DNA of 53,599 nt. It comes from Candidatus Eiseniibacteriota bacterium (GTDB lineage: Bacteria; Eisenbacteria; RBG-16-71-46; CAIMUX01; WJJG01). Location: contig JAGMBO010000049.1 of NCBI GenBank assembly GCA_023129715.1, positions 1-53,599 on the forward strand, written 5' to 3'. Positions within the stretch are counted from its first letter, which is position 1. Every line of letters begins with the position of its first letter. Made by a program: the position numbers and the translations under genes. The notes under the pieces were generated by a model. The model was not told the origin of the DNA, ran no database searches, and was given only the letters and a program-made list of their open reading frames with translations. This document shows positions 3 through 31,738 of the stretch, piece by piece.

Positions 3-2720
3 GTGGATGAGTTCCGGCAGGGGATAGAGGAAGGACTTGCGGAGCCGAAGGCTGAGAAGCCGGATCGAGAAGAGACAGAAGATGAACCGGGCAAGTGTCC
101 TGAGTGCGGGCGGCTGAACACGGAAGATGCTCGCTTCTGCGAGGGGTGCGGAGTCGGTCTATTCCAGACCTGTCCCAATCCTGACTGTGGCAAGGAGCTA
201 CGGGTAGGGCTCGACTTCTGCCGTTACTGCGGCACCAGTATCGAGGAGGAGGCGTCCTACCGCGAGCACATCGCCCGGGCTGAGAAGCTATTGCAGAAGA
301 GCCAGTACGGGCGGGCGGAGAAAGAAGCCCGGCTGGCGCTGAAGCTGCGAGCGGAGGACAAGAAGGCGCAGGCGCTGGCCCAAGAAGCGAGCGAGAAAGC
401 CAAACGCCTGGAGGAACTCAGGCGGCAGACGAACAGGAGCCTGGAGCAGGGCGGCTTCGATCTGGCCGAGGAGCGGATCCGTGCGGCGTTAGAGCTGGCC
501 CCCCAGGATGAGGAACTGCTGGAGAAGCTCCGCACGCTCGCCCAACGTTGGACGGAGTCGAAGATCACCCGATGTGCCGAGCTGCTCGACGAACACCTGG
601 CAGCGAAGCGCTGGGCAGACGTCCTCGCTCGAGCCGATGAGATCATCGAGCTTGCAGTCAATAAGAAGTGGGAGGACGGCGGCCCGGTTCAAGGAATCCT
701 TGCACAAGCGAAAGATCTCAAGCACCAAGCGACGGAACAGATCGAACACTGTGAGCAGGTGTTGAACAAGGCCCATTTCCTGCACAACGAGCACCGCTAC
801 GGCGAGGAGATCGCCCTTCTTGAGGAACTTCTAGCTTCTTGGCCCGATGCGCATCGTGCTCAGATACTCCTTACGAAAGCGCGAGAGCAACGCGAGCGCG
901 TCGAGAACGCGTTGCAGGTCGCGGAGCAGGCTTTCGACCAGGGCCAGACCACTAAGGCAGGATACAATCTGCGTCAGGTGCTTGCAGCATGGCCGGAAGA
1001 TCCTCGGGCTCAGGCCCTGAAGAAGCGCCTTGTTCCTGCGCAGCGCGCGGCTGCCAGGCGACGGGCGATCCGGGTCGGAATCGCTGCGGGGGTGATTGCG
1101 GCCGTCGTTGCCATCGTCGCGGTGGTCTTCACGGTCAGGGACAATCGTGGCCATCTGTCGCTCTCTGAGCAGGCTCTGGCAGTCGGGGACTGGGAGACGG
1201 TCCATCGGGAGCTTAGTGAAGCCCGTGGGCTAGGTGTCTCCGAAGAAGCCTGGCAATCCGGTGCACAGGCGATTGGCGGGTTCGTGCTCGCGCGAGGGGA
1301 CAGCCTCCTGAAGGCCGGACAGTGGGATGCGGCCCGCAGGCATTACTCGCAGGCAGAGCGGCTCGGCGGGGCTGTGGCCAGCGAGGCAGAGAAGCGCACG
1401 ACAGTTCTGGAAGAACAGGCGGATCAGGAGATCAGGGGACTACAGGCGGAAGGACTGAGGCTGCAGCAGACTGGTCAGTTTGATGATGCTGTGGCGATGC
1501 TGCGGGGGATCGCCACGGTCCGGCCCGAGGCGGCGCCAGAGGTGGACAACCTGGTGGCCGGGGTGCAGGCGCTGGCGCAGCGCGCCGTCAGGATTGCCTC
1601 CTTGAGTCGTTCGATCCGTGAGGCCATCAACGAGGGGACAGAGGCGTCCATCCAGGCAGCAGAGCAGGCGCTGGTCGAACTTGCGGAGCTGGATCCCGAG
1701 AATGACATGCTGGCAGGGTTGCAAGACCAGCTTGCAACAGCCCGCGACGAACTGGAAAGGCAAAGACAAGAGGAAAGGCAAAGACAGCAGCGGATCACTT
1801 CATTGCTCTCAGAGATCGAGACAGCCATCGGACAGGGCACGGAGGCATCTCTGGAGCGCGCCCAAAACGATCTCCGAGATCTGAAGACACTGGCTCCGAA
1901 CCATGCACGGATCGGGAGCCTGGAGAAAAGCATCAGCACAGGTCTCTGGCAATTCCATCCAGTGGGGACCCGCGCCGGCCAAGTCGCGACCTTTGAGATC
2001 TCTCCCGGGGTCGAGATGGACTTCGTCTGGATCCCTGCGGGGAGATTCCAGATGGGGTCGCCGGAGAGCGAGCCGGGGCGTGATCGCGATGAGGGTCCAG
2101 TCCATCAGGTCGAGATCACGCAGGGGTTCTGGTCGGGGAAGTATGAGGTGACCCAGGCCCAATGGCAGGCCGTGATGGGGAGTAACCCATCGCACTTCAA
2201 GGGGAATACCGGCCGACCTGCAGAGAGCGTTTCTTGGAATTACTGCCAGGAGTTCATCGGAAAGCTGAACGAGGAAGCAGGAAGGGAGGTGTTCCGTCTA
2301 CCGACAGAGGCGGAATGGGAGTACGCGTGTTGTGCCGGAACAACGACGCCGTTCCACACAGGACACTGCCTATCGACCGAGGAAGCCAACTACAATGGCA
2401 ACTATCCTCAGGAGGGCTGCTCCAAGGGGGAGTATCGCGAGAAGACGATGCGAGTAGGCTCCCTGGCTTCGAATGCCTGGGGTCTGTATGACATGCACGG
2501 GAACGTCTGGGAGTGGTGTCATGACCGGTACGGCAGTGACTACTACGGCTCCTCACGCCGGGAGGACCCGGAGGGACCGGAGACGGGCTCGCTCCGCGTG
2601 CTGCGCGGCGGGGGCTGGAGCAGCAGCGCCCGCAGCTGCCGCTCTGCGAGTCGCAGTGACGACTCGCCCGGCTACCGCTACCGCAGCTTCGGCCTGCGCT
2701 TGACGAGAACGGCTCAATGA
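3..2720 (+). CDS. DGR target 1: zinc-ribbon/TPR membrane receptor with C-terminal FGE-sulfatase (lectin-fold) domain, 5'-partial
   Basis: The frame is open at the window edge, so this is the 3' part of a longer gene; GTG at 3 is only the first complete codon. Its first residues (VDEFRQGIEEGL) resemble the last helix of a Ser/Thr kinase domain (compare SVREFREALEG in the 5605 gene), so I infer a kinase domain upstream. Visible order: two zinc ribbons (Cys 32/35/46/49 and 57/62/73/76), TPR-like helices (about 85-350), one membrane helix (about 357-379), more helical repeats (385-650), and an FGE-sulfatase/SUMF1-like domain (about 671-905). The final 40-odd residues are the DGR variable region, with variable codons at 864-896. 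The zinc ribbons should face the cytoplasm and the lectin-fold domain the exterior. The FGE part is nearly the same in DNA as that of the 5605 gene, indicating recent duplication. True FGE catalysis is unlikely; in DGR targets this fold is a binding scaffold. Confidence 0.9.
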   Translation: MDEFRQGIEEGLAEPKAEKPDREETEDEPGKCPECGRLNTEDARFCEGCGVGLFQTCPNPDCGKELRVGLDFCRYCGTSIEEEASYREHIARAEKLLQKSQYGRAEKEARLALKLRAEDKKAQALAQEASEKAKRLEELRRQTNRSLEQGGFDLAEERIRAALELAPQDEELLEKLRTLAQRWTESKITRCAELLDEHLAAKRWADVLARADEIIELAVNKKWEDGGPVQGILAQAKDLKHQATEQIEHCEQVLNKAHFLHNEHRYGEEIALLEELLASWPDAHRAQILLTKAREQRERVENALQVAEQAFDQGQTTKAGYNLRQVLAAWPEDPRAQALKKRLVPAQRAAARRRAIRVGIAAGVIAAVVAIVAVVFTVRDNRGHLSLSEQALAVGDWETVHRELSEARGLGVSEEAWQSGAQAIGGFVLARGDSLLKAGQWDAARRHYSQAERLGGAVASEAEKRTTVLEEQADQEIRGLQAEGLRLQQTGQFDDAVAMLRGIATVRPEAAPEVDNLVAGVQALAQRAVRIASLSRSIREAINEGTEASIQAAEQALVELAELDPENDMLAGLQDQLATARDELERQRQEERQRQQRITSLLSEIETAIGQGTEASLERAQNDLRDLKTLAPNHARIGSLEKSISTGLWQFHPVGTRAGQVATFEISPGVEMDFVWIPAGRFQMGSPESEPGRDRDEGPVHQVEITQGFWSGKYEVTQAQWQAVMGSNPSHFKGNTGRPAESVSWNYCQEFIGKLNEEAGREVFRLPTEAEWEYACCAGTTTPFHTGHCLSTEEANYNGNYPQEGCSKGEYREKTMRVGSLASNAWGLYDMHGNVWEWCHDRYGSDYYGSSRREDPEGPETGSLRVLRGGGWSSSARSCRSASRSDDSPGYRYRSFGLRLTRTAQ
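2585..2720 (+). repeat. DGR variable region VR1
   Basis: This 3' end of target 1 aligns without gaps to the template repeat at 5166-5298. Across the variable interval (template 5173-5271), 18 of 29 template adenines are replaced here, while only 2 of 70 non-adenine positions differ. Template AAC codons have become CTC, AGC, AGT, GAC, TAC and TTC. The segment after the last variable codon (GGCCTGCGCTTGACGAG) is identical in template and both variable regions and is the likely initiation-of-mutagenic-homing segment. Beyond it VR1 differs from the template at isolated bases, as expected for IMH versus IMH*. The stop codon TGA ends the repeat. Confidence 0.95.
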
Positions 2721-2757
2721 CCCTTTGCACTCTTACCATCTTACGATCTGCTCTTGC

Positions 2758-2825
2758 GGACCGTAAGGTCCGGGTGGGCCTGCTCGGGAGGCAGGCGCAG
2801 CGCCGAGCCGAGCAGGCCCACCCGG
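2758..2825. repeat. 18-bp perfect inverted repeat downstream of VR1
   Basis: CCGGGTGGGCCTGCTCGG at 2770-2787 pairs perfectly with 2808-2825 across a 20-nt loop. The loop holds a second palindrome (GGCGC-A-GCGCC, 2794-2804), and just upstream is GGACC-GTAA-GGTCC (2758-2771). No T-tract follows, so a simple intrinsic terminator is not the obvious reading. Hairpins or cruciforms just downstream of the VR are known to promote homing in the Bordetella phage DGR; this one starts about 40-50 nt after the stop codon. A related but partly eroded copy follows VR2. Confidence 0.7.
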
Positions 2826-2893
2826 TTCGCTCGCCGGCGGTGCGTGCCGTCATCTCCTCTTCAGACATTGTCCGGAAGAGGGTATAGAAGCGC

Positions 2894-3445
2894 ATGCAGG
2901 ATGGTCTGAGGATGGGTGTTCGAATTCGGATCGTGACAATACCATTCAGCGAGAATCTGCAGGGCTTCGATGAGGCGCCACTAGCTGCGTTGGCCCGGCA
3001 AGCGGAGATCGTTGACTTGTCCGCGCATTTCTTCATCCACGGGGGCTGTCCGTATTGGACCTGCTTGGCTACCTGCGTGCCACGATCCTCACGCGAGGAG
3101 ATCGCCTCTCCCTCTTCCGCGAAGCACTGGAAGTCCCTTCTTCAGGAAGGAGATGCGGGTCTCTTCCAGACACTGCGGGAATGGAGAGCCAAGGAGGCCG
3201 ATGCACGAGGGATCCCCGCGTTTCTGATCCTGACGAATTGGCAGTTCGCCGAGATCTGCCGCGCGCGTCCAACAACACTGGCAGCGCTCGGTGCCATCGA
3301 TGGAATCGGCCCATCGCGATTGAAGAAGTACGGCCGAAAGGTATTGGAGATCGTTGGGCAATTCAGCGAAATTGCAGATTGCACACCAGTAACTAGCTCG
3401 ACAGTGGAAGACGAGATTCAACCGACGGCCCCACAAGATCCGTAG
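2894..3445 (+). CDS. DGR-associated HRDC-domain accessory protein
   Basis: 183 residues. The N-terminal half (FSENLQGFDEAPLAALARQ, then a HFFIHGGCPYWTCLATCVPR-like stretch) fits, from memory, the small N-terminal domain of DGR-linked HRDC proteins. The C-terminal half (about 105-160) is a five-helix HRDC module with the usual TTLAALGAIDGIGPSRLKKYG-type core, which in RecQ helicases and RNase D contributes to nucleic-acid binding. It lies between target 1 and the Avd gene, in the same direction, 62 nt before the Avd start. HRDC proteins are recognised DGR accessory factors, used with or instead of Avd; the exact role is not established. The ATG at 2894 is weakly supported by a ribosome site; GTG at 2924 is an alternative. 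Confidence 0.82.
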   Translation: MQDGLRMGVRIRIVTIPFSENLQGFDEAPLAALARQAEIVDLSAHFFIHGGCPYWTCLATCVPRSSREEIASPSSAKHWKSLLQEGDAGLFQTLREWRAKEADARGIPAFLILTNWQFAEICRARPTTLAALGAIDGIGPSRLKKYGRKVLEIVGQFSEIADCTPVTSSTVEDEIQPTAPQDP

Positions 3446-3507
3446 CCATCCCGCGGCTCTGCATTCTGTTGTCTGCCAGGGGGCCGGGGATCGCGAAAGG
3501 ACGGGCG

Positions 3508-3939
3508 ATGAGTGAGGAAGAACTCCCCCTCTTCGTGCACTGGATGGAGTTTCTCGACTGGCTTCTCTCCAGAACCGAGAAGTTCCCGCGCAGCGTCCGG
3601 CTCTCGATCTCGAATCGCATCGAGGCATTGGCGCTGGATATTCTCGAAGAGATCATCGAGGCACGCTACCGGCGTGATCGACTCCCTGTTCTGCGGGCGA
3701 TCAATCTCAGGCTCGAGAAGCTTCGCGTCCTACTTCGCATCTGCCATGGGCGGGGCTATCTTCATCACGATGGCTATGAGTATGGGGTCCGGCAGCTCGC
3801 AACAGCTGGGCGGATGATCGGTGGTTGGATCCGCTCGCTTGAAGCGGGTGCCGATCGGTCAGACAAAGCGCCCGCGAACGCCGGGCAGGACAGGCCGGAT
3901 AGTCACGGTATTTGTCGATCAGCCGGCAAGTCACGGTGA
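3508..3939 (+). CDS. avd: Avd-like accessory variability determinant (four-helix bundle)
   Basis: 143 residues. The core (about 1-105) is all-helical and basic, with LPLFVHWMEFLDWLLSRTEKFPR at the start of the bundle, VRLSISNRIEALALDILEEIIEARY in helix 2, a RAINLRLEKLRVLLRI helix and a YEYGVRQLATAGRMIGGWIR final helix. This is the pattern of the bAvd/S23-like family. Avd forms a barrel-shaped pentamer that binds the reverse transcriptase and template RNA and is needed for mutagenic cDNA synthesis in studied DGRs. The gene sits 26 nt before the chosen RT start, so the two are probably co-translated. ATG 3508 is preferred over the in-frame upstream codon at 3469 because family similarity starts there. 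The last 35 residues look like an unstructured tail. Confidence 0.85.
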   Translation: MSEEELPLFVHWMEFLDWLLSRTEKFPRSVRLSISNRIEALALDILEEIIEARYRRDRLPVLRAINLRLEKLRVLLRICHGRGYLHHDGYEYGVRQLATAGRMIGGWIRSLEAGADRSDKAPANAGQDRPDSHGICRSAGKSR

Positions 3940-3965
3940 TCGTTTGCCAGAAGAGGCGGGACAGC

Positions 3966-4964
3966 ATGTTCGACTCCATATGTTCATTCCAGGCACTCTA
4001 TCGCGCCACACAACGGGCTGCGCGTGGAAAGAGAAGGCGATTGCCCGTGGCGCGATTCCTTTGGAATCTGGAGACCGAGATTCTCGAGCTTCAAGAGGAG
4101 CTACAAGAAGGGCATTATCGGCCCAGAACTCCACGGAGATTCCTGATTCACGACCCCAAGGAGAGGCTGATCACCGTTGGGCATTTCCGCGACCGAGTTG
4201 TGCATCATGCTCTGTGTGACGGCATCGGCCCGATCCTTGATGCCAGGGCGATCGGATCTTCCTACGCCTGTCGGCCGGGCAAGGGACCGCTTGAGGCAAT
4301 TGCGCATTGCCAGCGTTTGGCCCGGAGATGTCGGTTCTTCCTGAAGTGCGATGTCGCGCAGTTCTTCGCGAGCATTGATCACGCGATTCTGGGGATCCTC
4401 CTGAGCAGGACCACCAAGGACCGGCGCGTGCTTGCCCTGCTGAGGGTGATCCTCGATGCAGGCGGGAATCTCGGGGAAGGGGGGCGACCGGACAGGGGAC
4501 TGCCCATCGGAAGCCTGACGAGCCAGCACCTGGCGAACTACTACTTGGCGGGCCTGGATCACTACGTCCTTCAGCAGCTTCGTCCTGTCGGCTACCTTCG
4601 CTACATGGATGATTTCCTGTTGTTCGGCCAGGAGCGTGGCCGGCTGCGGGAGATGCTGACGGCAATCCGGGAGTTCTTAGCCAAGCGACGGAGATTGCGG
4701 CTGCGGGATTCGGCCACTCTGCTTGCCCCCACAGCCTCTGGCATCCCCTTCCTGGGATTGCAGATCTTTCCAGGCGTGATCCGACTGCGGCGGAGTCGCA
4801 TTCGGCGTTTTGGTCGTCTGGCCAAGAGGCGGCTTGCACAGTATGGAGCAGGCGTCCTCTCCGAAAAGGAATGGCAGAATTCGATCACCGCGATGCTGGC
4901 GCATATCGAGCGGGGAAGCGCTCCCGCGTTTCGCCGGGCGTTGATTCAACCTATTCTGAGGTAG
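3966..4964 (+). CDS. DGR-type reverse transcriptase
   Basis: 332 residues, a normal length for DGR reverse transcriptases. The N-terminus (ICSFQALYRATQRAARGKRRR) is the typical opening of this clade. Catalytic aspartates are seen in motif 3 (LKCDVAQFFASIDH, D129) and in YMDD (residues 213-216). Motif 4 reads IGSLTSQ (181-187); SQ here is diagnostic for DGR enzymes and is linked to low fidelity opposite adenine, while group II and retroviral enzymes have QG. There is no maturase, endonuclease or RNase H domain. It copies the template RNA encoded just downstream (5166-5298) into adenine-mutagenised cDNA that replaces VR1 or VR2. ATG 3966 is chosen because family similarity starts there; an in-frame ATG at 3912 would overlap avd. 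Confidence 0.95.
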   Translation: MFDSICSFQALYRATQRAARGKRRRLPVARFLWNLETEILELQEELQEGHYRPRTPRRFLIHDPKERLITVGHFRDRVVHHALCDGIGPILDARAIGSSYACRPGKGPLEAIAHCQRLARRCRFFLKCDVAQFFASIDHAILGILLSRTTKDRRVLALLRVILDAGGNLGEGGRPDRGLPIGSLTSQHLANYYLAGLDHYVLQQLRPVGYLRYMDDFLLFGQERGRLREMLTAIREFLAKRRRLRLRDSATLLAPTASGIPFLGLQIFPGVIRLRRSRIRRFGRLAKRRLAQYGAGVLSEKEWQNSITAMLAHIERGSAPAFRRALIQPILR

Positions 4965-5165
4965 CTCCTGTGCTGGCTTGGGGACGCGGTGGGCCGGCTC
5001 CTGTGTTACCTTGGGAGCGGAGCAAGCGGCATTGCCGTTCTTATCAGAAGGCGGATTGCCAGATGTTTCGGCATCAACCGCCTGTGCCAAGATGTGGTTG
5101 CTTCTGCCCGCCGCTGTGCCCCATGCTTGCTGCCGGGTGGGAGCTGCTTTGAACAGGCCGTTTGT
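4965..5165 (+). other. Leader between RT gene and template repeat
   Basis: No convincing gene. This 200-nt stretch probably forms the 5' part of the template RNA. Open frames cross it but show no family resemblance and run into the adenine-rich template, so they are not accepted as proteins. Confidence 0.5.
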
Positions 5166-5298
5166 GGGCTCGAACCGCGTGCTGCGCGGCGGGAGCTGGA
5201 ACAACAACGCCCGCAACTGCCGCTCTGCGAATCGCAACAACAACAGGCCCGGCAACCGCAACCACAACAACGGCCTGCGCTTGACGAGTACGGCTCGA
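5166..5298 (+). repeat. DGR template repeat (TR)
   Basis: Non-coding donor copy of the variable regions, about 200 nt after the RT stop. The similarity to VR1 and VR2 begins at GGGCTCG (5166-5172) and fades after GGCTCGA (5298). Between 5173 and 5271 it holds 29 adenines: twelve AAC codons, one AAT, and single adenines in AGC, AGG and CAC. In both variable regions these are the main changed positions. AAC in the target frame allows 16 codons without any stop when both adenines are randomised, the classic design of a DGR template. The target-frame translation has long runs of Asn. The TR lies downstream of the RT, flanked on both sides by target genes. Confidence 0.96.
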
Positions 5299-5306
5299 TG
5301 CCGGTG

Positions 5307-5330
5307 GTCGGGAGTCGAAAGACTCCCGAC
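5307..5330 (+). other. Perfect hairpin just after the template repeat
   Basis: GTCGGGAGTC (5307-5316), a GAAA loop (5317-5320) and GACTCCCGAC (5321-5330) form a 10-bp GC-rich stem with a stable GNRA tetraloop, 8 nt after the end of the TR. No T-tract follows. In studied DGRs the RNA downstream of the TR folds and binds RT-Avd to prime cDNA synthesis, so this is a candidate structural element of the template RNA. Confidence 0.7.
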
Positions 5331-5604
5331 GTGTGCGGGAGCCGTCCATGTTCCCATCCCGTTCCGGCCGCATCCTCGGACTCGTGCCGGGGGCCGCAGG
5401 CTGGCAAAGAGGGTCGGGGCTGCGGCCGACGGACGAGGCTTTCCGTATCACCGCGACAAGTGCCGCAGTCCCACTGCACAGACCGGTGATTCAGGGGACC
5501 GAGACGGGGCGAATCAGACTGGGTGTTCCGGGCAATTCCGGCCGCTCAGACCGGGGGCCTCGCCGGTCGGTGTCGGCGATGTTCTCTTGGTGGTGTAGAG
5601 GACC
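5331..5604 (+). other. Intergenic region between TR hairpin and target 2
   Basis: No gene recognised. It is the leader of the receptor kinase gene and possibly the 3' part of the template RNA. It ends in TAGAGGACC directly before ATG 5605, a plausible ribosome site with short spacing. Confidence 0.45.
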
Positions 5605-7575
5605 ATGAAGACTTGTCCAAAGTGCGGCCAGTCGAATGTTCAGGGTGCAACCTACTGCTCGCGGTGCGCGGCTCTGCTGGAGCCGCGGGTAGGGTCCGAG
5701 AACACCCGCTTTGGTAACGGCTCCCAAGATGATCCAGACGCAACCATCGGCCCCGGTGACGGGCGACCCGGTTCCACCGCCGGCCAGTTCGAGATCCTCA
5801 CGGAAGTCGGGCGCGGCGGCATGGGGGTCGTTTACCATGCGCGCGATCGCCTGTTGGGTCGCGAGGTCGCGCTGAAGCGGCTCTCTCCCCGTCTTCTAGG
5901 GAGCCAGGTGGGCATTCAGCGCTTCCTGGCGGAGGCGCGCGCGATCGCGGCCCTATCCCACCCTCACATCGTGCAGATTCACCAGTTCGGCGAAGATGCC
6001 GAAGGGCCCTTTATCGCGATGGAGTGGATTGAGGGCCAGGATCTGCGGTCGCTGCTCAAGCAGCGCGGCAAGCTGACCCTTCAGGATGCACTCGGACTGA
6101 TCCGTCCCGTCCTTGCAGCTCTTGACTACGCACACCGCAAGGGAGTGGTCCACCGCGACCTGAAGCCGGCCAACATCCTGTTGACGCACGAGGGCATTCC
6201 GAAGGTCGTCGACTTCGGACTGGCCCGGGTTCTGACGACAGAGGATCTGACCCTGACCGGCGAGTCGGTAGGCACGCTGGCCTACATGGCCCCCGAGCAA
6301 TTCGGCGATGCGAAGCATGCGGACCATCGTTCCGACATCTTCGCACTGGCGAAGGTCATCTATCAGATGCTGACCGGCGAGTATCCGGGCACTGTGGATC
6401 CGCAGCTCCTGCCGGACGAGGTCCGGGAGGTCTTGCTTCGTGCGCTCCGCTCGAAGCCTGAGGAGCGCTACTTCAGTGTGCGCGAATTTCGGGAGGCGTT
6501 GGAGGGGATTGCAACTCGAGCTGTCGGTCGCGAGCCTACACCCAGACCGAGAACTCGATACGTACCGCGGCGGCGGTGGGGCTGGGTAGTCGGAGTTCCG
6601 CTCGTCGTCGTGATAGGAATCGTTCTGGGTGTTGTCTATCTCCCTTCACTGTGGCAGGGCAGCAGCGATGACCAGCAAGCTCCGGCCCGGCGAACGAGCA
6701 GCCTGTCGCCTTCTGAGGGAACCGATCGAGGCGAGTCGACCCCAGCCGACATAGTCTCCCCGGCCGATTCCGAGGACTTGCCCCGCGCTGTTCCGGAGAT
6801 GGACGTGGCTCGACGCGGTGCACTCTCTGCAGGGGAATCACGCGCGTTCACCGTCTATTCCGGAGTACAGATGGATTTCGTCTGGATCCCGGTGGGGCGT
6901 TTCCGGATGGGGTCGCCAGGGAGCGAGCCGGGGCATGAGGACAACGAGAGCCCAGTTCACGAGGTCGAGATCACACAGGGCTTCTGGCTGGGGAAGTACG
7001 AAGTGACTCAGGCCCAATGGCGGGCGGTGACGGGCAGCAATCCCTCCGACTTCAAGGGGGATACCGGCAGACCTGTAGAGGGCGTTTCTTGGAATGACTG
7101 CCAGGAGTTCATCGGAAAGCTGAACGAGGAAGCGGGAAGGGAGGTGTTCCGTCTACCGACAGAGGCGGAATGGGAGTACGCGTGCCGTGCCGGAACAACG
7201 ACGCCGTTCCACACGGGGCGTTGCCTATCGACCGAGGATGCCAACTACGATGGCAATCATCCTCAGGAAGGCTGCTCCAAGGGAGAGAAGCGGGAAACGA
7301 CGATATCAGTAGGCTCCTTGGCTGCGAACGCTTGGGGTCTGTATGACATGCATGGGAACGTCTATGAGTGGTGTCATGACTGGTACGGCAGTGACTACTA
7401 CGGCTCCTCGCCCGGGCAAGATCCGGAGGGACCGGGGACGGGCTCGTACCGCGTGCTGCGCGGCGGCAGCTGGGTCAGCTACGCCCACAGCTGTTGCTCT
7501 GCGAATCGTGGCAGCCTCGGGCCCGGCCTTCGCTATCACAGCAGCGGCCTGCGCTTGACGAGGACGGCCGGATAA
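5605..7575 (+). CDS. DGR target 2: receptor Ser/Thr protein kinase with extracellular FGE-sulfatase domain
   Basis: 656 residues. Order: N-terminal zinc ribbon (CPKCGQSNVQGATYCSRC, 4-22), Hanks-type kinase (about 55-300) with glycine loop GRGGMGVVY, Lys91, HRDLKPAN (Asp185) and DFG (Asp203), one membrane helix (about 324-350), a Ser/Pro-rich linker, and an FGE-sulfatase/lectin-fold domain (about 420-656). The kinase has all catalytic residues and should be active in the cytoplasm, with the lectin-fold domain outside. The last codons are VR2, with variable positions 615-647. This makes it a receptor kinase whose sensor surface is rewritten by the reverse transcriptase. The FGE domain is near-identical in DNA to that of target 1. 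A true formylglycine-generating activity is unlikely because the C-terminal cysteine arrangement does not fit. Confidence 0.95.
   Translation: MKTCPKCGQSNVQGATYCSRCAALLEPRVGSENTRFGNGSQDDPDATIGPGDGRPGSTAGQFEILTEVGRGGMGVVYHARDRLLGREVALKRLSPRLLGSQVGIQRFLAEARAIAALSHPHIVQIHQFGEDAEGPFIAMEWIEGQDLRSLLKQRGKLTLQDALGLIRPVLAALDYAHRKGVVHRDLKPANILLTHEGIPKVVDFGLARVLTTEDLTLTGESVGTLAYMAPEQFGDAKHADHRSDIFALAKVIYQMLTGEYPGTVDPQLLPDEVREVLLRALRSKPEERYFSVREFREALEGIATRAVGREPTPRPRTRYVPRRRWGWVVGVPLVVVIGIVLGVVYLPSLWQGSSDDQQAPARRTSSLSPSEGTDRGESTPADIVSPADSEDLPRAVPEMDVARRGALSAGESRAFTVYSGVQMDFVWIPVGRFRMGSPGSEPGHEDNESPVHEVEITQGFWLGKYEVTQAQWRAVTGSNPSDFKGDTGRPVEGVSWNDCQEFIGKLNEEAGREVFRLPTEAEWEYACRAGTTTPFHTGRCLSTEDANYDGNHPQEGCSKGEKRETTISVGSLAANAWGLYDMHGNVYEWCHDWYGSDYYGSSPGQDPEGPGTGSYRVLRGGSWVSYAHSCCSANRGSLGPGLRYHSSGLRLTRTAG
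7440..7575 (+). repeat. DGR variable region VR2
   Basis: Gapless match to the template repeat. In the variable interval 17 of 29 template adenines are changed (AAC to TAC, GTC, AGC, GGC, CTC, CTT, TAT), against 7 of 70 non-adenine bases. The higher non-adenine count than in VR1 suggests a longer time since the last homing event or ordinary drift. The 17 nt after the last variable codon are identical to the template and VR1. Codon choices differ from VR1 at most variable positions, so the two regions were diversified independently. Confidence 0.94.
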
Positions 7576-7680
7576 TCCTTTGCACTTTTATCATCTTACG
7601 ATCTGCTCTTGTGGACAGGAAGGTCCGGGTGGGCCTGCTCAGGAGGCAGGCGCAGCGCCGAGTCGAGCAGGCTGGAGCCG
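7576..7680 (+). repeat. 3' flank of VR2, duplicate of the VR1 flank, with partial inverted repeat
   Basis: About 95 nt after the stop codon closely match the sequence after VR1 (2721-2815), sharing CATCTTACGATCTGCTCTTG and AAGGTCCGGGTGGGCCTGCTC. The long stem of VR1 is reduced to GCCTGCTC (7633-7640) with GAGCAGGC (7665-7672), while the inner GGCGC-A-GCGCC palindrome (7649-7659) is intact. Similarity stops near 7672. This shows that the duplication of the target end included the downstream flank. Confidence 0.7.
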
Positions 7681-14241: not shown

Positions 14242-15159
14242 CTAGTAGACGATCACGACCTTGCAGTTGCGCAATAGGAACCCCAGGCTCTTGGGGTCGA
14301 TGTCATCCTCGAGTTGATCGGAGGAGAGCACCAGGTCAGTAGCGCGCAGAGCGGTGCCCTTCACTGCCGTCGCCGTGAGAATCAGGGGATGCGTGGCCAC
14401 GCGCTCCGATTCCCTGGCTGCATCCAGCGTCGATGCCCACCCCACGAGTCCGTTGCCCTCGGCGATCTCGGGATCGACATGATCGGGTGAGCGCGCGTAG
14501 ATGGTCGAGCCATCTTCGAGAAACACCGCGGGGCTGAGCGACGGAACCAGTCCCATCTCGTCCGCATTGATGATGATCCCGGTGACGACGACTACTACCG
14601 TGTCTGTGCCACCCACGGCGTCTGTGCCGGTCGGTTGCTGCGGCGCGGGAGGCAGCAGGGCGGTCCAATCGTCGATCACTCGAGGCTCGGCGGGGTAGAG
14701 GCTGTCGCTCAGGGACCCGTCTCCGTTGAGGGCCACGCGCACGAGTACCTCGGCGCTGCGGTCCTCATGAAAGTGGGTCTCGATCGGCTGGACCCCGCGG
14801 AGGAACCCGGAAACGCGAGTGTTGATGGCGTGATCCGAGGCCATCCTGTTGTGTACGGTGACCTCGGCATCGATAGCCAGCCCGTGGATGATCTCGGTCA
14901 AGTTGCGCATCGCATCGAGTTGTGCGGCCCGTTCGGCGTGTCTCTTGGCGAGAGCGAGATTCGTCTCTCCCTCGGGAGGCAAGCCAAGCCCCCGCGCATA
15001 GACAAACCCGCTATCCCAGTCCACCCCGGTCTCGGGGCCCTGCGGGCCGCTGTGCGCGGCCCCGGCAGAACAGAACAGCAATCCGATCAGGGTGTAGGCG
15101 ATCAAGCTGGCGTTGATGCGTGAGCAGCGAGAGCGTTCATGTGCTGGCAAACAGATCAT
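14242..15159 (-). CDS. LPP20/FlgP-like exported protein
   Basis: 305 residues. An N-terminal hydrophobic segment (ASLIAYTLIGLLFCSAGAAHSG) is a signal peptide, perhaps lipidated. The next part (ARGLGLPPEGETNLALAKRHAERAAQLDAMRNLTEIIHGLAIDAEVTVHN) is the LPP20-type motif, in which repeated Ala-rich helices are followed by a strand with VRVAL. The C-terminal half is a separate beta-rich unit ending in NCKVVIVY. The start codon shares its first base with the stop of the kinase upstream (TAATG), so translation is coupled. With the next two genes it makes an LPP20/FlgT/CsgG set, like FlgP-FlgT-FlgO of flagella but alone. Confidence 0.68.
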   Translation of the reverse strand: MICLPAHERSRCSRINASLIAYTLIGLLFCSAGAAHSGPQGPETGVDWDSGFVYARGLGLPPEGETNLALAKRHAERAAQLDAMRNLTEIIHGLAIDAEVTVHNRMASDHAINTRVSGFLRGVQPIETHFHEDRSAEVLVRVALNGDGSLSDSLYPAEPRVIDDWTALLPPAPQQPTGTDAVGGTDTVVVVVTGIIINADEMGLVPSLSPAVFLEDGSTIYARSPDHVDPEIAEGNGLVGWASTLDAARESERVATHPLILTATAVKGTALRATDLVLSSDQLEDDIDPKSLGFLLRNCKVVIVY

Positions 15160-16742
15160 TATTCACCTCTTGCCGGACGAGCCTCGGCGAGTATCTCGGC
15201 CAGGTTGTTCAACTCATCGTTCTCGGGGTCTAAGGCGAGGCCGATCTGGCAGGAGCGCTCGGCGGCCGTCTGATCGGATAGACCGTATTGTGTCCAGGCG
15301 AGCTTGGCATAGTACTTGGTCTGAGTTTCATCGTGACGAACGGCGGCGCTGAAGAGCTCCGCGGCCCGGGCGTAATCCTGCAGTTCATACGCCCCGAGCC
15401 CCCACCAGTAGTGAAGTTCGGCTAACTGGGCTGCCGGGAAGTCAGTCGTAGCGATTTGCTCATCAGGGTCCAGCGTCATCAGACGCCGCCAGTCTTGGTC
15501 CTCATAGGCCTGCCGGCTGAGCACATACAGCCGAGCGACGTTGACCTGGGGGTTTGAAACGGAGTCCGGAGTTCCGGGACGCAGTGAGGTGACTCCCCAG
15601 ATGGCAGCGAGTACGAGGACGGCTCCCAAGGCAGCGAAGTATGGCCAGCGCCTTCGCTGCGGCGGATGCGATTCATTGTGCGTCTCTTGTCCAGGGGTTG
15701 GGGGAGACGGCGTCCGGCCCGGGCCGCTCAGTGTGGGCTCAAGAGGGCCGGGGACAGTCTTGACGGTCTCCGGTGGGAGGGGCTGTAGCGCCTTTAGACC
15801 GGCTTCCAGATCCTTCCAGAACTCCCCCACACTGTAGTGGCGCCTCTCCGGCTTCCGGTGCATGGCTCGCAGGAGCGGCTTGCGAAGCGGCTTGGGGATT
15901 TCTTCCTCGTCGATCTGAGTGGGGAGTTGACCGGTCAGCAGATGGTAGCAGGTCTTTGCCAGCGCGAAGATGTCACTGCGCTGGTCGAGCCGCTCCGGGT
16001 GCTCATACTGCTCGGGCGGCATGTAGGCAGTTGTCCCGGCGGCCTCCACGGGACGCGTGGCGCTCGGATCGATCGTCACCCGTGCAAGGCCGAAATCGAC
16101 GAGCTTCGGGATGCCATCCTCGGTCACGAGGATATTGCTCGGCTTCAGATCGAGATGGATCACGTTGTGGCGATGGGCATAGGCGAGTGCGTCGCAAATG
16201 TCCCGCATGAGCTCGTGCAGCACCGCCGGAGAGAGGCGGCCTTCCGAGTTGAGGCGATCGAGTAGATTCTCGCCGGATACCCACTCCATCAGAATGAAAT
16301 CACCATCGGCATCCGTGCCATGCTCGTAGACATGCACGATATGTGGGTGACTGAGGGCCGCGATCGAGCGGGCTTCGGAGAGAAACCGCTCGCAAGCGCG
16401 CGGATCCCGGGCGAATTGCGGCGCCAATCGCTTCAGAGCGGCCTCCCGGCAGAGCTTGTGATCCCGGATGCGAAACACCCGTCCCATGGAACCGGGCGGC
16501 CGTTCCTCGAGAATCTCGAACCGTCCCTTGGCATACGGCTGGGGCTTGGGGGCGAGGGGTTGGATTCGAGTGGCGGAAGGGTCGGGGGGCGGATCTCCTG
16601 CGGGCGCTTCGTTGGGAGGTGCGCCGGGTCGAGCCTGGGACGTGCGCTCCTCGGCAGTCGACGATTGGCGCGGGAAGCGCCCGCAGTGGGGGCACATCTT
16701 TGTGCCTTCGGGGATCACCATCTGGCAGTGAGGGCACTTCAT
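15159..16742 (-). CDS. Membrane Ser/Thr protein kinase with zinc ribbon and extracytoplasmic TPRs, atypical HLD motif
   Basis: 527 residues. Zinc ribbon CPHCQMVIPEGTKMCPHCG at the N-terminus, kinase domain (about 73-315), Pro-rich linker, one membrane helix (WPYFAALGAVLVLAAIWGV, about 370-388), and TPR-like repeats to the C-terminus. The catalytic loop reads HLDLKPSN: the Asp and Asn are kept but the usual Arg is Leu, as in RD-minus kinases. The glycine loop is also altered (RPPGSMGRVF). VDFG and the APE-equivalent PPEQ are present, so it is probably active but controlled differently. AGGAGG precedes ATG 16742. It leads the operon encoding the LPP20-, FlgT- and CsgG-like envelope proteins, which may be its targets or ligands. 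Confidence 0.88.
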   Translation of the reverse strand: MKCPHCQMVIPEGTKMCPHCGRFPRQSSTAEERTSQARPGAPPNEAPAGDPPPDPSATRIQPLAPKPQPYAKGRFEILEERPPGSMGRVFRIRDHKLCREAALKRLAPQFARDPRACERFLSEARSIAALSHPHIVHVYEHGTDADGDFILMEWVSGENLLDRLNSEGRLSPAVLHELMRDICDALAYAHRHNVIHLDLKPSNILVTEDGIPKLVDFGLARVTIDPSATRPVEAAGTTAYMPPEQYEHPERLDQRSDIFALAKTCYHLLTGQLPTQIDEEEIPKPLRKPLLRAMHRKPERRHYSVGEFWKDLEAGLKALQPLPPETVKTVPGPLEPTLSGPGRTPSPPTPGQETHNESHPPQRRRWPYFAALGAVLVLAAIWGVTSLRPGTPDSVSNPQVNVARLYVLSRQAYEDQDWRRLMTLDPDEQIATTDFPAAQLAELHYWWGLGAYELQDYARAAELFSAAVRHDETQTKYYAKLAWTQYGLSDQTAAERSCQIGLALDPENDELNNLAEILAEARPARGE

Positions 16743-21006: not shown

Positions 21007-23127
21007 ATGGGTCTCTTCACCACGAAGTGCCAGAACTGTGGCGCCAAGGTCAGCCGCCGCGCTCGCTACTGCAGCAAGTGCAGCGCGATCCCCGATGGAT
21101 CGGGCCAGACGGATCGCTGCTGGAAGTGCGGGCATGAGGTCTCCGTGACGTCCGAGTACTGTCCTGAGTGCAAGGCAGACTTGCGCGCTGCCAAGCGACC
21201 AGAGATCGCGGGGCACAAGTGGATCCGAGACGACGACGCCTTCGCGGTGCGTATCGAAGTTGACGACGTTCCCGGTTTCTTCAAGAAAGAGCTCTACATC
21301 GAGCCCGGCACGCGGGCGGTTTTCATTATCGATGGCCGCATCAGCGGGGAAGTTGGACCCGGCTGGTACACGATGGGTGGACTCGTCGGCCGCATCACCG
21401 GGCTCTCCGCCGCGCGCAAGATGACTGCGATACTCACCGATGCCTGGGACTCGGAACTCGAGTTCCGCGCGGCGAATGTCTACACTCGCGATCCGATCGG
21501 TCTCAATGTGACCCTCTCGATGACCATTGCGGCAGATGATGTGACTGTCATTGCGGGCAAGCTGCTCGCTGATCGTCCTTCCGTCGGCGCCAAGCGCCTA
21601 CTCTCGCTTCTCGAGCCCGAGGTGCGTCAGGCGGTGGCCGGGTTCGTCAAGAGCCACAGTGCCGCTGAGCTCGATGAGGGCGCGACGATTCGCGCCGACC
21701 TCCAGCGGGTGGTTGCCGAGGAGCTCGCCGAGACGCTCAAGCGCCACGGCCTGGCCTTCACCAACATCCGGACGCTCGATTTCTTCCACGAAGAGCTCGA
21801 CGAGCAGAAGAAGACCCGCGAGACCTACTTCCTGCAAGTGAGCGAGGACCAGGCCAAGCTCGAGGGAAAGCAGCGTCTCTTCGATGTCAAGAATGCCGCG
21901 GATCTCGAGGGGATCCGTCAGGAGAGCGCCCAGCTCGAGGTGATCCAGAAGCGCATCGATGTCTGGGGCGGGATGATCGACGCCGCGCAGAAGATGGATA
22001 TGAAGGTCTTGCGCAGCGGAGCCGACTTCAAGGAATTCAAGCGCAATCTCGATAAGGAAGAGCTTCTCTCGGGTCATGATCTCTGGAAGCTCATTCAGGA
22101 CGTCAAGATGCGCGAGGGGCGCGAGGAGGAGACTCGCAAGCATCTGATGGCGGTCCTGAAGATGGAGCAATTCGCCGAGCGGGAACGCTTCCGTCTTGTC
22201 AAGACGCATGAACTGAGCGACCTGGAGGCGACCCACGCACTGGAGTCGGCCCGGAAGGAGCTACACGGTAAGATCGATCTCAATCGCGTCTCCGTCGAGG
22301 CAGCCGTGGCAGAGATGCGCACACGCACGGATGCGGAGCTGGAGCGGCGGGGGAAGATGGGGGCTGCCTATCGCCAGGAGGCGGAGGCGGCGGCTGCCAG
22401 CCGTCGGCAGATCTCGGTCGAGGATTTCTTCGTCGAGCTGAAGAAGCGCGAGGCTGCCTATGAGCTCGAGCGGCGGCAGACGGCGGACGCTGTTGACCAG
22501 GCGATCGACTACAAGACGCGCAAGGCAGAACTCAGAGAGAAAGAGAGGCAAGCCGACCATGGTCGGGAGCAAGAGACCAAGGAGCTGGACACCCGCCTGC
22601 TGCGCGAGAAGATCGAGAGCATCGTTGGGAAGACTGGTGGGGCAGATGCGCAGCTTCTGATTGCTGCGCTCTCGGGAGTGTCGGACGAGGGGCTCGATGC
22701 GATCAAGGAGACGCTCCGGGCGGGACAGATGAAGGACATGACGCCCGAGCAGATCGCTGCCATGGTGGCAGAGAAGAATCCTTCCGTGCTGAAGGATCTC
22801 GCCGACTCGATGCGCGCCAAGAGCTCCGATAGCGAGAAGCTCTACGAGCGGATGCTGGTCGATCAGAAGGAGAGCGCTACTCGCACGCAGGAGATGCTCG
22901 AGCGAGTGATGAAGATGGCTCTGGAGACGCAGAAGGATGTTGCCCGCGGCGGGCAGGGCGGCCAGGGGTCGACGGTTGTGGTCTCCGGGTCGGGAGGCGC
23001 ACCTCAGGTCGTGGGGCCGCAGACGGGTCAGGGCGGCACGTTCCAGGCGAAGGGTTGTCCCCATTGCGGCGCCATCGTGGATGCCCAGCTCAACATCTGC
23101 CCGGAGTGCAAGAAGCCGATGAAATAG
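21007..23127 (+). CDS. SPFH/Band-7 (stomatin/flotillin-like) protein with zinc ribbons at both ends
   Basis: 706 residues. Two N-terminal zinc ribbons (CQNCGAKVSRRARYCSKC; CWKCGHEVSVTSEYCPEC), an SPFH domain (about 75-290: AVFIIDGRISGEVGPGWYTM, ANVYTRDPIGLNVTLSMTI, DLQRVVAEELAETLKRHGLAFTNIRTLDF), a long charged coiled coil (about 290-600), a Gly-rich linker and a C-terminal zinc ribbon (CPHCGAIVDAQLNICPEC). There is no clear membrane helix; related SPFH proteins attach peripherally and make large oligomeric cages or lipid domains. The resemblance is to bacterial SPFH proteins of the virion-core-like type that sit next to phage-shock or stress genes. It opens the rightward cluster and faces the ESCRT-like operon. 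Confidence 0.85.
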   Translation: MGLFTTKCQNCGAKVSRRARYCSKCSAIPDGSGQTDRCWKCGHEVSVTSEYCPECKADLRAAKRPEIAGHKWIRDDDAFAVRIEVDDVPGFFKKELYIEPGTRAVFIIDGRISGEVGPGWYTMGGLVGRITGLSAARKMTAILTDAWDSELEFRAANVYTRDPIGLNVTLSMTIAADDVTVIAGKLLADRPSVGAKRLLSLLEPEVRQAVAGFVKSHSAAELDEGATIRADLQRVVAEELAETLKRHGLAFTNIRTLDFFHEELDEQKKTRETYFLQVSEDQAKLEGKQRLFDVKNAADLEGIRQESAQLEVIQKRIDVWGGMIDAAQKMDMKVLRSGADFKEFKRNLDKEELLSGHDLWKLIQDVKMREGREEETRKHLMAVLKMEQFAERERFRLVKTHELSDLEATHALESARKELHGKIDLNRVSVEAAVAEMRTRTDAELERRGKMGAAYRQEAEAAAASRRQISVEDFFVELKKREAAYELERRQTADAVDQAIDYKTRKAELREKERQADHGREQETKELDTRLLREKIESIVGKTGGADAQLLIAALSGVSDEGLDAIKETLRAGQMKDMTPEQIAAMVAEKNPSVLKDLADSMRAKSSDSEKLYERMLVDQKESATRTQEMLERVMKMALETQKDVARGGQGGQGSTVVVSGSGGAPQVVGPQTGQGGTFQAKGCPHCGAIVDAQLNICPECKKPMK

Positions 23128-23197
23128 CGCGGTGATGCGCCTCGACATAGAGTGCCGTTGGGAACTTGCACGATCGAGAGTCCGGGGGTGGATACGG

Positions 23198-25105
23198 ATG
23201 GCCTTGCGCAGTTGCCCAGATCCGAATTGCGGCTACCCGCTCGAGGGTGAAGAGTCGGAATGTCCCCGATGTGGATTGGACTTGCATCCGTACCTTGGAG
23301 GCAAGTCGAGCGAAGAGGTGTCCACGGATGTCCAGGGGCTCCGCGACGATCCGCAGGCGGTGGCTGGCGCGGTTGCTGGCAGCGGCGATTCTTCGCATGC
23401 CGCGCAGGTGGGCCAGGCTGCTCCACCTTCCGCTGCCCCAGCGGCTGTTCCGGCGAATCTCGCCCAAACCCAGCGCAGGAAGGCAACCGACACAGATCCC
23501 AATATCACGACTGACAGGGTGGTGCCTCAGACTGGCGCGTCGGCATCGGGCGAATGTCCTCCTTGCGAGGTGAGTCCGGAAACTCACCGGGTTCCTGCAG
23601 CTGGGCAAGCTCCCGATGGAACTCCGCCCCCGAGCCGGGAGGAGGATCAACCTCCCTTCCGTCTGGCGATCAATGCTGCTACGCGCTACTTCGAGAAGCA
23701 GCACGGCCTGATTCACATCCAGCTGGCAAACGAGACAGAGAACAGGATCCGGGAGATAAGATGTACCTGTTCGGCCGGCTTGATTACCGAGTGGGCATCC
23801 TGCGAAGAGAAGATCCGCAACTTGCGCTCCGGGCGGCTGCGGGAGATCGAGTTTACCTACAAGACTCAGCAGTCGGCAGGTCCCGTGCCCTTGAGATTCC
23901 ATATTCGCTGTGAGACCCATGACGAGAAGACCCTCTTCTTTGTCTCCCGTCACCGAATCAACTTCAAGAAGGCACACCGTGGGGGTGGGTACAATCCCGT
24001 GATTTTCCATGGCGATGTGGATGTCGTCGGACACGAAGCGAGTCTGGGACTCGGGGGTGCGGACGGGCGAAACGATCCACCGAACGGCGAACATGTGGAA
24101 GAGCCGGAACCGAACTGGTACACGCTCGACCTCGAAGTCGATGACGATGCCTATGATGACGAGGCACACAGGCGCGGCACGGAGGGCAAAGCCCAGGTCG
24201 TTCCCTCCGCCCGTCATTCACGCCCCACGGATGTCGCTCTGCTCAGCAGCCGCGTCGGCGGTTGCACGCAGCGGATCGTTCTCTGCTCGCGGCGCCGGAT
24301 TCCGTTTGGAGCAGATCGGGAGGGGCGCGACCATACGCGGCTGCCCTGGCCGCCGCCGGTTTCGCCGGATACGCCCCACAACTTCGAGGAACTCTATCGC
24401 AAGATCAGCCGCAAGCACGGAGAGTTCATCGTCGATCTCGACCGGGTGGAGGTCGCGATTTCTCCGGAATGCCTCAATGGTCTCGAGGTCGACGGCCGGC
24501 TCCTGACCAACGACTCTCCCGGTCCGGTCGAGCTACGGTTGGATGGGTCGAAGGTCGTGTTTCCCTATAGCGGCGTTGCCTACCAGAGTGCGCGGTTCTC
24601 TCCCCACCAGGAGGGCGATGCGCGGCAGTCACGTGTCCAGAGCCTGACCACCCTGGGTGAAGGGGGAGCCGGGACTGCGATGGGCGACTCGGACGGGGTG
24701 TTAGGGATTGATGGATTTGCGGAGTACGATGCGGTTCGCCTGTGCCGCCTCCCCAACACACTGCAAGAAGGCGTTCCGGATAGCCATGATACCCTGCTGA
24801 TTCTGGTGCGTGAGGCGCGCATCGGAAGCAGCGAGAGGAATGCAATCGTCATCGATGGGGAAGGTGTTGAGCGCGTGCATGCGGCGATCATCTTCAAGGG
24901 GCAGCGGTACTGGCTCCAGGATCTGAGCAGTGAGGCCGGAATCACGAGGATCGGACACCTGGGGGACGACCCCCGATCGGATCGTTCTCTGGAAACCAAG
25001 CAGACGGTCGAGCTCTTCGACGGCGCGCGCATTACCCTGGGGAGCTGCGAATACCACTTCCAGATTCCGGATAACTGGGGAAGCGCGATTCCCGCAATTA
25101 CCTAA
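23198..25105 (+). CDS. Zinc-ribbon protein with two FHA phosphopeptide-binding domains
   Basis: 635 residues. N-terminal zinc ribbon CPDPNCGYPLEGEESECPRC, a low-complexity Ala/Pro linker, a beta-rich domain (about 150-260), then a first FHA-like unit (RRIPFGADREGRDHTRLP ... ISRKHGEFIVDLDRVEVAISPECLNGLEVDGRLL) and a C-terminal FHA unit (EARIGSSERNAIVIDGEGVERVHAAIIFKGQRYWLQDLSS). The first keeps the key Arg-Lys-His pattern (SRKH); the second has VERVHA. FHA domains bind phosphothreonine, so this is a natural reader for the Ser/Thr kinases in the window. ATG 23198 is chosen since the zinc ribbon begins at once; an in-frame upstream start near 23132 would add an unlikely basic leader. Confidence 0.85.
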   Translation: MALRSCPDPNCGYPLEGEESECPRCGLDLHPYLGGKSSEEVSTDVQGLRDDPQAVAGAVAGSGDSSHAAQVGQAAPPSAAPAAVPANLAQTQRRKATDTDPNITTDRVVPQTGASASGECPPCEVSPETHRVPAAGQAPDGTPPPSREEDQPPFRLAINAATRYFEKQHGLIHIQLANETENRIREIRCTCSAGLITEWASCEEKIRNLRSGRLREIEFTYKTQQSAGPVPLRFHIRCETHDEKTLFFVSRHRINFKKAHRGGGYNPVIFHGDVDVVGHEASLGLGGADGRNDPPNGEHVEEPEPNWYTLDLEVDDDAYDDEAHRRGTEGKAQVVPSARHSRPTDVALLSSRVGGCTQRIVLCSRRRIPFGADREGRDHTRLPWPPPVSPDTPHNFEELYRKISRKHGEFIVDLDRVEVAISPECLNGLEVDGRLLTNDSPGPVELRLDGSKVVFPYSGVAYQSARFSPHQEGDARQSRVQSLTTLGEGGAGTAMGDSDGVLGIDGFAEYDAVRLCRLPNTLQEGVPDSHDTLLILVREARIGSSERNAIVIDGEGVERVHAAIIFKGQRYWLQDLSSEAGITRIGHLGDDPRSDRSLETKQTVELFDGARITLGSCEYHFQIPDNWGSAIPAIT

Positions 25106-25255
25106 CATGGCTATAGTTGTGAGGCACCTGGCCCTGTCGGGGAGGGGCTCTTTCCCCTGCGGTGCATCGCCCGCGCCAAGTCCTGCAAGCTTCCGCCGTT
25201 TCTTCTCGTCCCTACCAGTGAATGCGATCAAGGCCACTTTGCCAGGAGGGAGACA

Positions 25256-26434
25256 ATGACCTCACGAAACCACCACCATCCGATTGCCTGGGCCGCCGCC
25301 GGACTGCTCGGTCTCGCGGTCCTCGCCCATGGCCTGAACACGCCGCCGGCGTTCGGTCTCGCCGCGCCAGGGCCCGGTCAGCCGACCCCATCGATATCCG
25401 AGGTCGAGGTCGTCGGGATCGCGACGTCTGCCGCGAGCGGCGACTCGATCGTTGGGGTGCCGCTCGTGGGCGTCGAGGCGCTGACTGCAGCGGCGATCCG
25501 GGATGCTTTCGAGAAGGCCGGGCTGTGGATCACGCGCACGCGCAATCTCCTTTCCATTTCTGACTCCTATGGCCTTGGAGGGGCGATCTCGACCGAACGC
25601 GTGCGGGCCTCTCTTCAGGATTGTATCGACTCCTATGAGGTCCTTGAGACAACCATCCGCGACAGCAGCGCCCTGGCGACCGTTCGTCTGCGGGTCAATG
25701 AAGAGCGGATCGACGAGGTTGGGCTGGGGCGGCTTCAGATCCTGCCCATCGTCGGCGGTCGCGCCTTCGCCTCCGATGCTGACGCTCTCGCCGATGAGAT
25801 CCGCGCGGCCCTCGGAGCCGCGCTGGCAGACTCCGGCATCCGAGTGCTTGAACCACTCCAAGTGGTCTCGATCTCCCGTGATCCGGAGCAGCTGCTCAGC
25901 ATCGGCAAGCGCAATCGGGCCGATCTTCTCCTGATCGTCGAGTGCTCCAGCCGCGATCTGGACCAATTGGGCAGTTTCGTGCGCCGGGAGTATCGCGCCG
26001 AGGTCCGCCTTGTCGCCGGCTATACGGGGCAGGCGCTTGCCGAGCACAGCTTCGTCCGTGAAGGAGAGCGCCACTACGATGCGACCAAGATGCTCTCTAC
26101 TGCGGGCCGCGCCCTGGGTGGCGAGATCGGTGAGTACACACTTGCCAAATTGGACGAACTCGGCGAGCGGATTCTGGTGCGGCGAGTCAAGGTCTGCAAC
26201 ATCCCCTCGCATGAAGAGGCCGAGTGGGTTGCACAGGCCCTTGAAGGCATTGGCGGTGTACATGCGGTGCGATTGCTGCTCTTTGACGAGACCGAGGGCG
26301 GCTGCGCGTTCTTCCAGATCGAGACGGCTGCGGACCTCTACAACCGTTTGGGAATCGAACTGCAGAGACTAGGCGGAGCGTCTCTGCATGTCACCAGCGA
26401 GAGTCCATCCTGGATCGAAGCGGTGATCGACTAG
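25256..26434 (+). CDS. Exported protein with FlgT/FlgO-like alpha/beta domains
   Basis: 392 residues with signal peptide (WAAAGLLGLAVLAHGLNTPPAFGLAAP). The first domain (SEVEVVGIATSAASGDSIVGVPLVGVEALTAAAIRDAFEKAGLWI) resembles the FlgT-N unit of the 13151 gene, and the second (QILPIVGGRAF, ALADSGIRVLEPLQVV, NRADLLLIVECSSRD, RAEVRLVAGYTGQALAEHSFVREG) the FlgO/CsgG-type unit. The C-terminal 100 residues (VCNIPSHEEAEWVAQALEGIGGVHAVRLLLFD) look like a small ferredoxin-like fold. AGGAGGGAG precedes ATG. Function unknown; a periplasmic or outer-membrane scaffold is likely. Confidence 0.6.
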   Translation: MTSRNHHHPIAWAAAGLLGLAVLAHGLNTPPAFGLAAPGPGQPTPSISEVEVVGIATSAASGDSIVGVPLVGVEALTAAAIRDAFEKAGLWITRTRNLLSISDSYGLGGAISTERVRASLQDCIDSYEVLETTIRDSSALATVRLRVNEERIDEVGLGRLQILPIVGGRAFASDADALADEIRAALGAALADSGIRVLEPLQVVSISRDPEQLLSIGKRNRADLLLIVECSSRDLDQLGSFVRREYRAEVRLVAGYTGQALAEHSFVREGERHYDATKMLSTAGRALGGEIGEYTLAKLDELGERILVRRVKVCNIPSHEEAEWVAQALEGIGGVHAVRLLLFDETEGGCAFFQIETAADLYNRLGIELQRLGGASLHVTSESPSWIEAVID

Positions 26435-26454
26435 TGTGTTGACTGAGGGAGGGG

Positions 26455-27120: not shown

Positions 27121-27130
27121 GGAGGCTATG

Positions 27131-28297: not shown

Positions 28298-28343
28298 GGA
28301 GCGCCCAAGTAATGAATGCGTATCGAGGGTGCAAGCGAGGTGA

Positions 28344-29591: not shown

Positions 29592-29598
29592 GGATGCG

Positions 29599-31736: not shown

Positions 31737-31738
31737 CC

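Follow-up and report, generated by a model that had tools for sequence, protein, structure and literature searches.

The window, a stretch of 53,599 nucleotides (contig C131 from base 1, in a genome of 4.83 Mb, 186 contigs and 95.9% completeness), almost certainly carries a chromosomal diversity-generating retroelement (DGR) with the layout target-HRDC-Avd-RT-TR, in which one template repeat (TR) serves four FGE/C-type-lectin genes (T1-T4), its likely purpose being to vary the ligand-sensing end of a receptor kinase family. The original prediction gave the gene order as target 1, HRDC, avd, RT, TR and target 2, and this order holds, with identities assigned through Pfam and NCBIfam, target 1 being an FGE protein and target 2 a kinase-FGE protein. 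The further claim that the DGR is complete is supported on every count that can be tested in sequence. The features of the locus, all on the forward strand, are listed below.

3-2720, +: target 1 (T1), with double zinc ribbon, coiled/TPR-like region, TM helix (residues 358-376) and C-terminal FGE/C-type-lectin domain
2585-2719, +: variable region VR1, an ungapped copy matching TR; mutable core 2592-2690
2721-2823, +: conserved 3' element of T1
2757-2772, +: hairpin CGGACC-GTAA-GGTCCG, a candidate target-recognition hairpin
2894-3445, +: HRDC-domain accessory protein, 183 aa (Pfam HRDC, 2.3e-18)
3508-3939, +: Avd, accessory variability determinant, 143 aa (NCBIfam NF033474, 91.7 bits, cut-off 80)
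3966-4964, +: DGR reverse transcriptase (RT), 332 aa from ATG 3966, with IGSLTSQ and YMDD; the ORF is open from TTG 3912
5166-5300, +: TR, with varying adenines in 5173-5271; 5272-5300 is a candidate initiation (IMH-like) segment
5307-5330, +: perfect 10-bp hairpin with GAAA loop, just 3' of TR
5605-7575, +: target 2 (T2), with zinc ribbon, Hanks-type Ser/Thr kinase, TM helix (residues 328-346) and FGE/C-type-lectin domain
7440-7574, +: variable region VR2, the oldest-looking of four VRs; mutable core 7447-7545
7576-7672, +: conserved 3' element of T2, with hairpin 7612-7627 (loop GGAA)

The RT contains an RVT_1 domain (Pfam, 1.7e-17), and the DGR-specific SQ motif claimed for it is present as IGSLTSQ, matching the published DGR RT motif (I/V/L)GxxxSQ (PMC3521204). 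The Avd protein matches bAvd (2.9e-15) and also scores above the cut-off of NCBIfam DivGenRetAVD, and HRDC, Avd and the RT motifs are all intact. Three further RVT_1 genes of the genome (contigs C6, C175 and C150; L014, L015 and L016) were rejected as DGR RTs, having a QG-type motif rather than SQ, and these other reverse transcriptases look like group II intron maturases. In the proposed mechanism, the TR would be transcribed, and the RT, aided by Avd and probably by HRDC, would copy the transcript into cDNA, inserting random bases wherever the template has an adenine; this cDNA would then take the place of the corresponding 3' end in a target gene.

Template and variable regions

The match of TR to VR1 and VR2 is ungapped over the intervals listed above (5166-5300 against 2585-2719 and 7440-7574), and ends abruptly on the upstream side. 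Over TR 5173-5271 (29 adenines, 70 other bases), a recount gave values identical to those originally reported, with VR1 changed at 18/29 A and 2/70 non-A positions (1/38 C, 1/25 G, 0/7 T), and VR2 at 17/29 and 7/70 (5/38 C, 2/25 G, 0/7 T). Comparison of A with non-A positions over 5173-5285 (Fisher) gives p = 4e-11 for VR1 and 2e-7 for VR2. The two VRs also differ from each other, as had been noted, at 28/113 core positions, 19 of them opposite TR adenines. Both are real, but two is an undercount: a TR search of the same genome yields, in two further FGE genes outside the window, VR3 (C138:323-456, minus strand), changed at 17/30 A and 1/83 other bases, and VR4 (C178:2717-2851), changed at 20/30 A and 1/83 other bases. 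When the four VRs are pooled (4 x 113 positions), 72 A changes stand against 11 non-A changes, and all mutable template adenines (29/29) are changed in at least one VR. All of these adenines fall on codon position 1 or 2, as is usual in DGRs, and the randomised codons are mostly AAC. Over the 3' segment 5272-5300, TR and VRs are nearly the same, apart from a base at 5289 that is found only in TR and differences near 5296-5297.

Adenine bias of this kind could also arise if these genes were ordinary paralogues whose lectin-surface codons are under diversifying selection, with the 'TR' as a dead 3' fragment of one of them. The FGE paralogue P8 (window 37714-40413, minus strand), which has neither a TR match nor the 3' element described below, speaks for such a reading, differing from TR at 23/29 A versus 28/76 non-A positions (p = 9e-5), and the TR adenines fall in surface codons that are variable in every FGE paralogue. 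P8 is accordingly an undiversified paralogue and a useful control; it is a kinase-TM-FGE protein with an additional C-terminal FlgD-like domain. Because this non-target shows A-bias too, the bias is no proof of homing, and taken alone is weak evidence of it in this family; likewise, an even spread of differences over the four template bases is too weak as a refuting test, since lectin-fold paralogues show A-bias without homing.

The mark of homing is instead near-zero change at C, G and T, which is seen in VR1, VR3 and VR4, and less so in VR2. The first three together have 4/249 non-A changes, versus 17/83 in the paralogue P5 (p = 4e-8). At C/G/T positions, TR, VR1, VR3 and VR4 are 98-99% identical, whereas P8, P9 and P5 differ from TR at 22-47% of them. 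Moreover, the TR is not itself an FGE gene and adjoins the DGR RT and Avd, and a different genus keeps the layout with a TR/VR pair of its own. The ordinary-paralogue reading, to which we attach a very small probability, is thus already refuted on present evidence. P5 (VR5, C134:46251) was also considered as a fifth target and rejected, with changes at 22/30 A and 17/83 non-A positions and without the 3' element, although it may be an old target; it shows that members of the target family can have A-bias while being far from identical to TR. A within-codon test of adenines (positions 1-2 versus 3) was set aside as proof of homing, since P5 passes it too (p = 0.002).

With one template rewriting several genes as the preferred reading, the case that VR1, VR3 and VR4 have been homing sites is strong. 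Non-A divergence among them is 2-4%, versus 7-15% in the adjoining 185 coding bases (p = 0.016, 0.021 and 0.10 for the T1/T3/T4 pairs). The original prediction that both VRs of the window have been homing sites is therefore well founded for VR1; VR2 is likely to have been one as well, but an older one, with weaker near-identity at non-A positions. Of all 11 non-A changes it accounts for 7 (binomial p = 0.008); six of these are C>T or G>A, which looks like ordinary drift after the most recent rewriting. At non-A positions it differs from the other VRs by 10-11%, a level near that of the flanks (7-15%).

Such drift bears on whether the DGR is decayed or idle, its parts intact but homing stopped wholly or for some targets, leaving the VRs to drift as fixed genes. 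The seven changes of VR2 and the broken hairpin stem behind it accord with this, as do the intermediate similarity of P5 to TR and the existence of a gene, G6, which has the 3' element and a VR-equivalent four codons short, as a retired target would. We nevertheless consider an idle DGR unlikely, given that VR1, VR3 and VR4 have only 1-2 non-A changes in 83 while the adjoining gene parts differ by 7-15%, and that the RT motifs, Avd and HRDC are all intact; the DGR may well be currently active.

Target proteins and their proposed array

All four targets contain the FGE-sulfatase domain (Pfam), and the VR forms their last 45 codons. Among solved structures, the closest by sequence is Treponema denticola TvpA (PDB 2y3c, E 2.8e-32); the two VRs align with each other, and the randomised codons lie on a face homologous to the variable face of TvpA. 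In T2 and T3, a Hanks-type Ser/Thr kinase precedes the FGE domain. The T2 kinase (Pkinase, 2.2e-46) contains HRDLKPAN, DFG and APE and is followed by a single TM segment, while T3 has HLD in place of HRD and no TM segment. One strong TM segment likewise lies between the N-terminal part and the lectin domain in T1 and T4, and T1, T2 and T4 are thus predicted to be membrane proteins with the two parts on either side of the segment, in which ligand binding by the lectin domain may activate the kinase.

The 5' end of T1 is cut by the start of contig C131, and that of T4 by the start of its own contig; the two contig starts have exactly 25 bases in common, which occur nowhere else in the genome. 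Because these shared starts sit just beyond the Ser/Thr kinase domain of the full-length paralogue P5, T1 and T4 are probably kinases too, truncated by a fork in the assembly. On the other side of this fork, 25 bases are likewise shared between the C178 end and the reversed C138 start, followed by 62 more after one mismatch. The simplest joining would give T3, T4, other kinases, T1, HRDC, Avd, RT, TR and T2, all in one direction. The paired 25-base contig ends (window position 1 with L011 position 1; L010 position 1 with L185 position 4572) suggest that a repeated kinase segment, absent from the bin, has collapsed in the assembly, and that the targets form a single array.

The genome as a whole is rich in Ser/Thr kinases of the zinc ribbon/TPR type, and has 26 FGE-sulfatase matches. 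One gene product (L185 753-4259, contig C178) is a 1169-aa kinase with double zinc ribbons, in which a PF25302 domain (NAD glycohydrolase translocation F5/8 type C family) takes the place of the FGE domain of its paralogues. Elsewhere in the window, a further Ser/Thr kinase with zinc ribbon and TPR is encoded at 15159-16742 (minus strand), and a gene run at 21007-33925 (plus strand), which includes a zinc-ribbon/Band 7 protein, an FHA-domain protein and a CHAT-domain (caspase-like) protein, is possibly a signalling or conflict cluster. Three ORFs at 34025-36188 (minus strand) have a third-position GC of 0.61-0.64, below most of the window; a Pfam scan of the two larger ORFs alone gave no match.

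Related loci and known systems

Relatives of the RT were collected from 80 loci and from the same-family genome G004, giving 81 loci with 34-51% identity (51% for G004); the nearest genomes compared belong to other genera. A TR/VR pair is present at about 61/81 of these loci, and HRDC and Avd occur together in 22/81, so the layout is common. Kinase-bearing VR genes are also found in Acidobacteria (L056), Bacteroidetes (L077) and Deltaproteobacteria (L103). G004, from a different genus, keeps the order target-HRDC-Avd-RT-TR with its own TR and one VR, changed at 18/36 A and 3/75 non-A positions; no further VRs were found in that genome beyond the local one. The TR-framework pattern was absent from the viral contigs searched.

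Several published systems share parts of this design. The Treponema denticola DGR uses one TR and one RT for up to seven scattered FGE/C-type-lectin genes, includes an HRDC gene, and has some 'suspicious' targets with excess mutations (PMC4891356). The present DGR resembles it in serving several FGE/C-type-lectin genes from one TR/RT, in its HRDC accessory, and in having TvpA as the closest solved structure; by contrast, the T. denticola targets are often predicted lipoproteins, while those described here are kinase fusions, and Avd is encoded beside HRDC. In cyanobacterial DGRs, a Ser/Thr kinase is located N-terminal to the CLec domain, targets are both local and remote, and cruciforms have been suggested at their 3' ends (PMC7517822). 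The same kinase-CLec arrangement and the combination of local and remote targets are found here, in another lineage, but the cyanobacterial proteins are mostly predicted to be cytosolic, whereas T1, T2 and T4 have a TM helix. The DGRs of Thiohalocapsa PB-PSB1, whose activity was proved by population reads, have STAND NTPase, TIR and CHAT domains among their targets, with several targets per locus and unequal activity (PMC10907252); these systems and the present one have in common FGE/CLec sensors on signalling or conflict domains, including a kinase. The part of the DiGReF survey drawn on here reports two to four VRs per DGR through duplication, with VR-less paralogues kept in the genome (PMC3521204), in agreement with the several VRs, undiversified paralogues and SQ motif of the present system, and that part describes no kinase array. 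DGRs with one template and several targets, HRDC accessory genes, Ser/Thr kinase-lectin targets and hairpins downstream have thus all been published before, and only the detail of the GNRA-loop element described below, and its state at T2, goes beyond these descriptions.

The conserved 3' element

An element of about 100 bases after the stop codon is kept after T1-T4 and after the kinase-FGE gene G6 (element at C134:50251-50351), and is found at comparable strength nowhere else in the genome and after no other FGE gene. It contains a hairpin, CGGACC-loop-GGTCCG, with a 6-bp stem located about 37 nt after the stop codon. The loops (GTAA, GGAA, GGGA and GAGA in the targets, GCGA in G6) fit GNRA in 5/5 cases; their two middle bases differ among the copies, while the surroundings hardly vary. 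As DNA, the hairpin is predicted to fold in T1, T3, T4 and G6; in T2 it is not, one pair of the stem being lost to a mismatch and another weakened to a wobble. The only broken stem thus coincides with most of the non-A drift, which is suggestive, as a single case, of T2 being a retired target. In G6 (L162 849-2930, minus strand, contig C134), the GCGA-loop hairpin is intact, but the VR-equivalent falls four codons short of the TR length, so that TR can hardly serve this gene; G6 would be either a retired target or the target of a TR outside the assembly.

In Bordetella phage BPP-1, a hairpin downstream of the VR is required for homing, and phage DGR hairpins have stems of 7-10 bp and GRNA loops (PMC3240598). 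The hairpin described here is similar in having a GC-rich stem and a 4-nt loop 3' of the VR, and the loops GGAA, GGGA and GAGA fit GRNA. It departs from the BPP-1-type limits (7-10 bp stem, GRNA loop, 4-34 bp after the VR) in its 6-bp stems, in the loops of T1 (GTAA) and G6 (GCGA), and in its slightly greater distance from the VR end (about 37 nt), and so appears to be similar in kind to the BPP-1 element rather than a strict member of its class. Searches of Rfam gave no match at family threshold, no credible match to the element was found in the same-family genomes, and the five copies contain no compensatory pairs, being too few to be informative in this respect.

It is quite conceivable, at slightly below an even balance, that the 3' element merely terminates transcription or forms a 3' UTR, was copied along when the genes were duplicated, and has nothing to do with homing. 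In favour of this reading, a second, longer hairpin (7-18 bp) comes after the first; after T1 (window 2770-2825) it has 18 perfect bp and a 20-nt loop, and after T2, T3, T4 and G6 it is shorter (7-11 bp). Among the related DGR loci, tetraloop hairpins are little commoner after VRs than after TRs (11/70 versus 7/70, both counts being slightly inflated by two loci with masked N runs). The hairpin was rejected as a general feature of HRDC+Avd DGRs, being nearly absent from that class among the related loci, and no tetraloop hairpin follows the VR of G004. Against a terminator or 3' UTR, the element is better conserved than the adjoining coding sequence, T1 and G6 differing at 2/38 bases of the element and by 36% in the coding sequence just before the VR; it follows no gene other than the four VR genes and G6; and its position and loop type resemble those of the BPP-1 hairpin that was proved necessary.

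A bolder reading, which we hold to be rather improbable, is that the element acts as a cis-acting tag, whereby the GNRA-loop hairpin would decide which FGE genes are rewritten, stem loss (T2) or VR length mismatch (G6) would retire a gene, and the variation of the loop bases would be a trace of homing. The hairpin at 5307-5330, just after TR, is the longest tetraloop hairpin in the window, and our guess is that it belongs to the 3' part of the template RNA. It has no counterpart in G004, and the region after TR as a whole is not distinctive in folding (z -1.65).

The locus is a clear-cut case of four kinase-linked sensors served by a single template, and its paralogues warn that adenine bias alone is no proof of homing in this protein family. 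It also contains built-in comparisons, namely G6 with the 3' element and no matching VR, P5, P8 and P9 with neither, and T2 with a damaged hairpin, and what marks a DGR target is therefore testable within one genome. If the cis-acting tag were to prove true, a single kinase array would hold both changing and frozen sensors.
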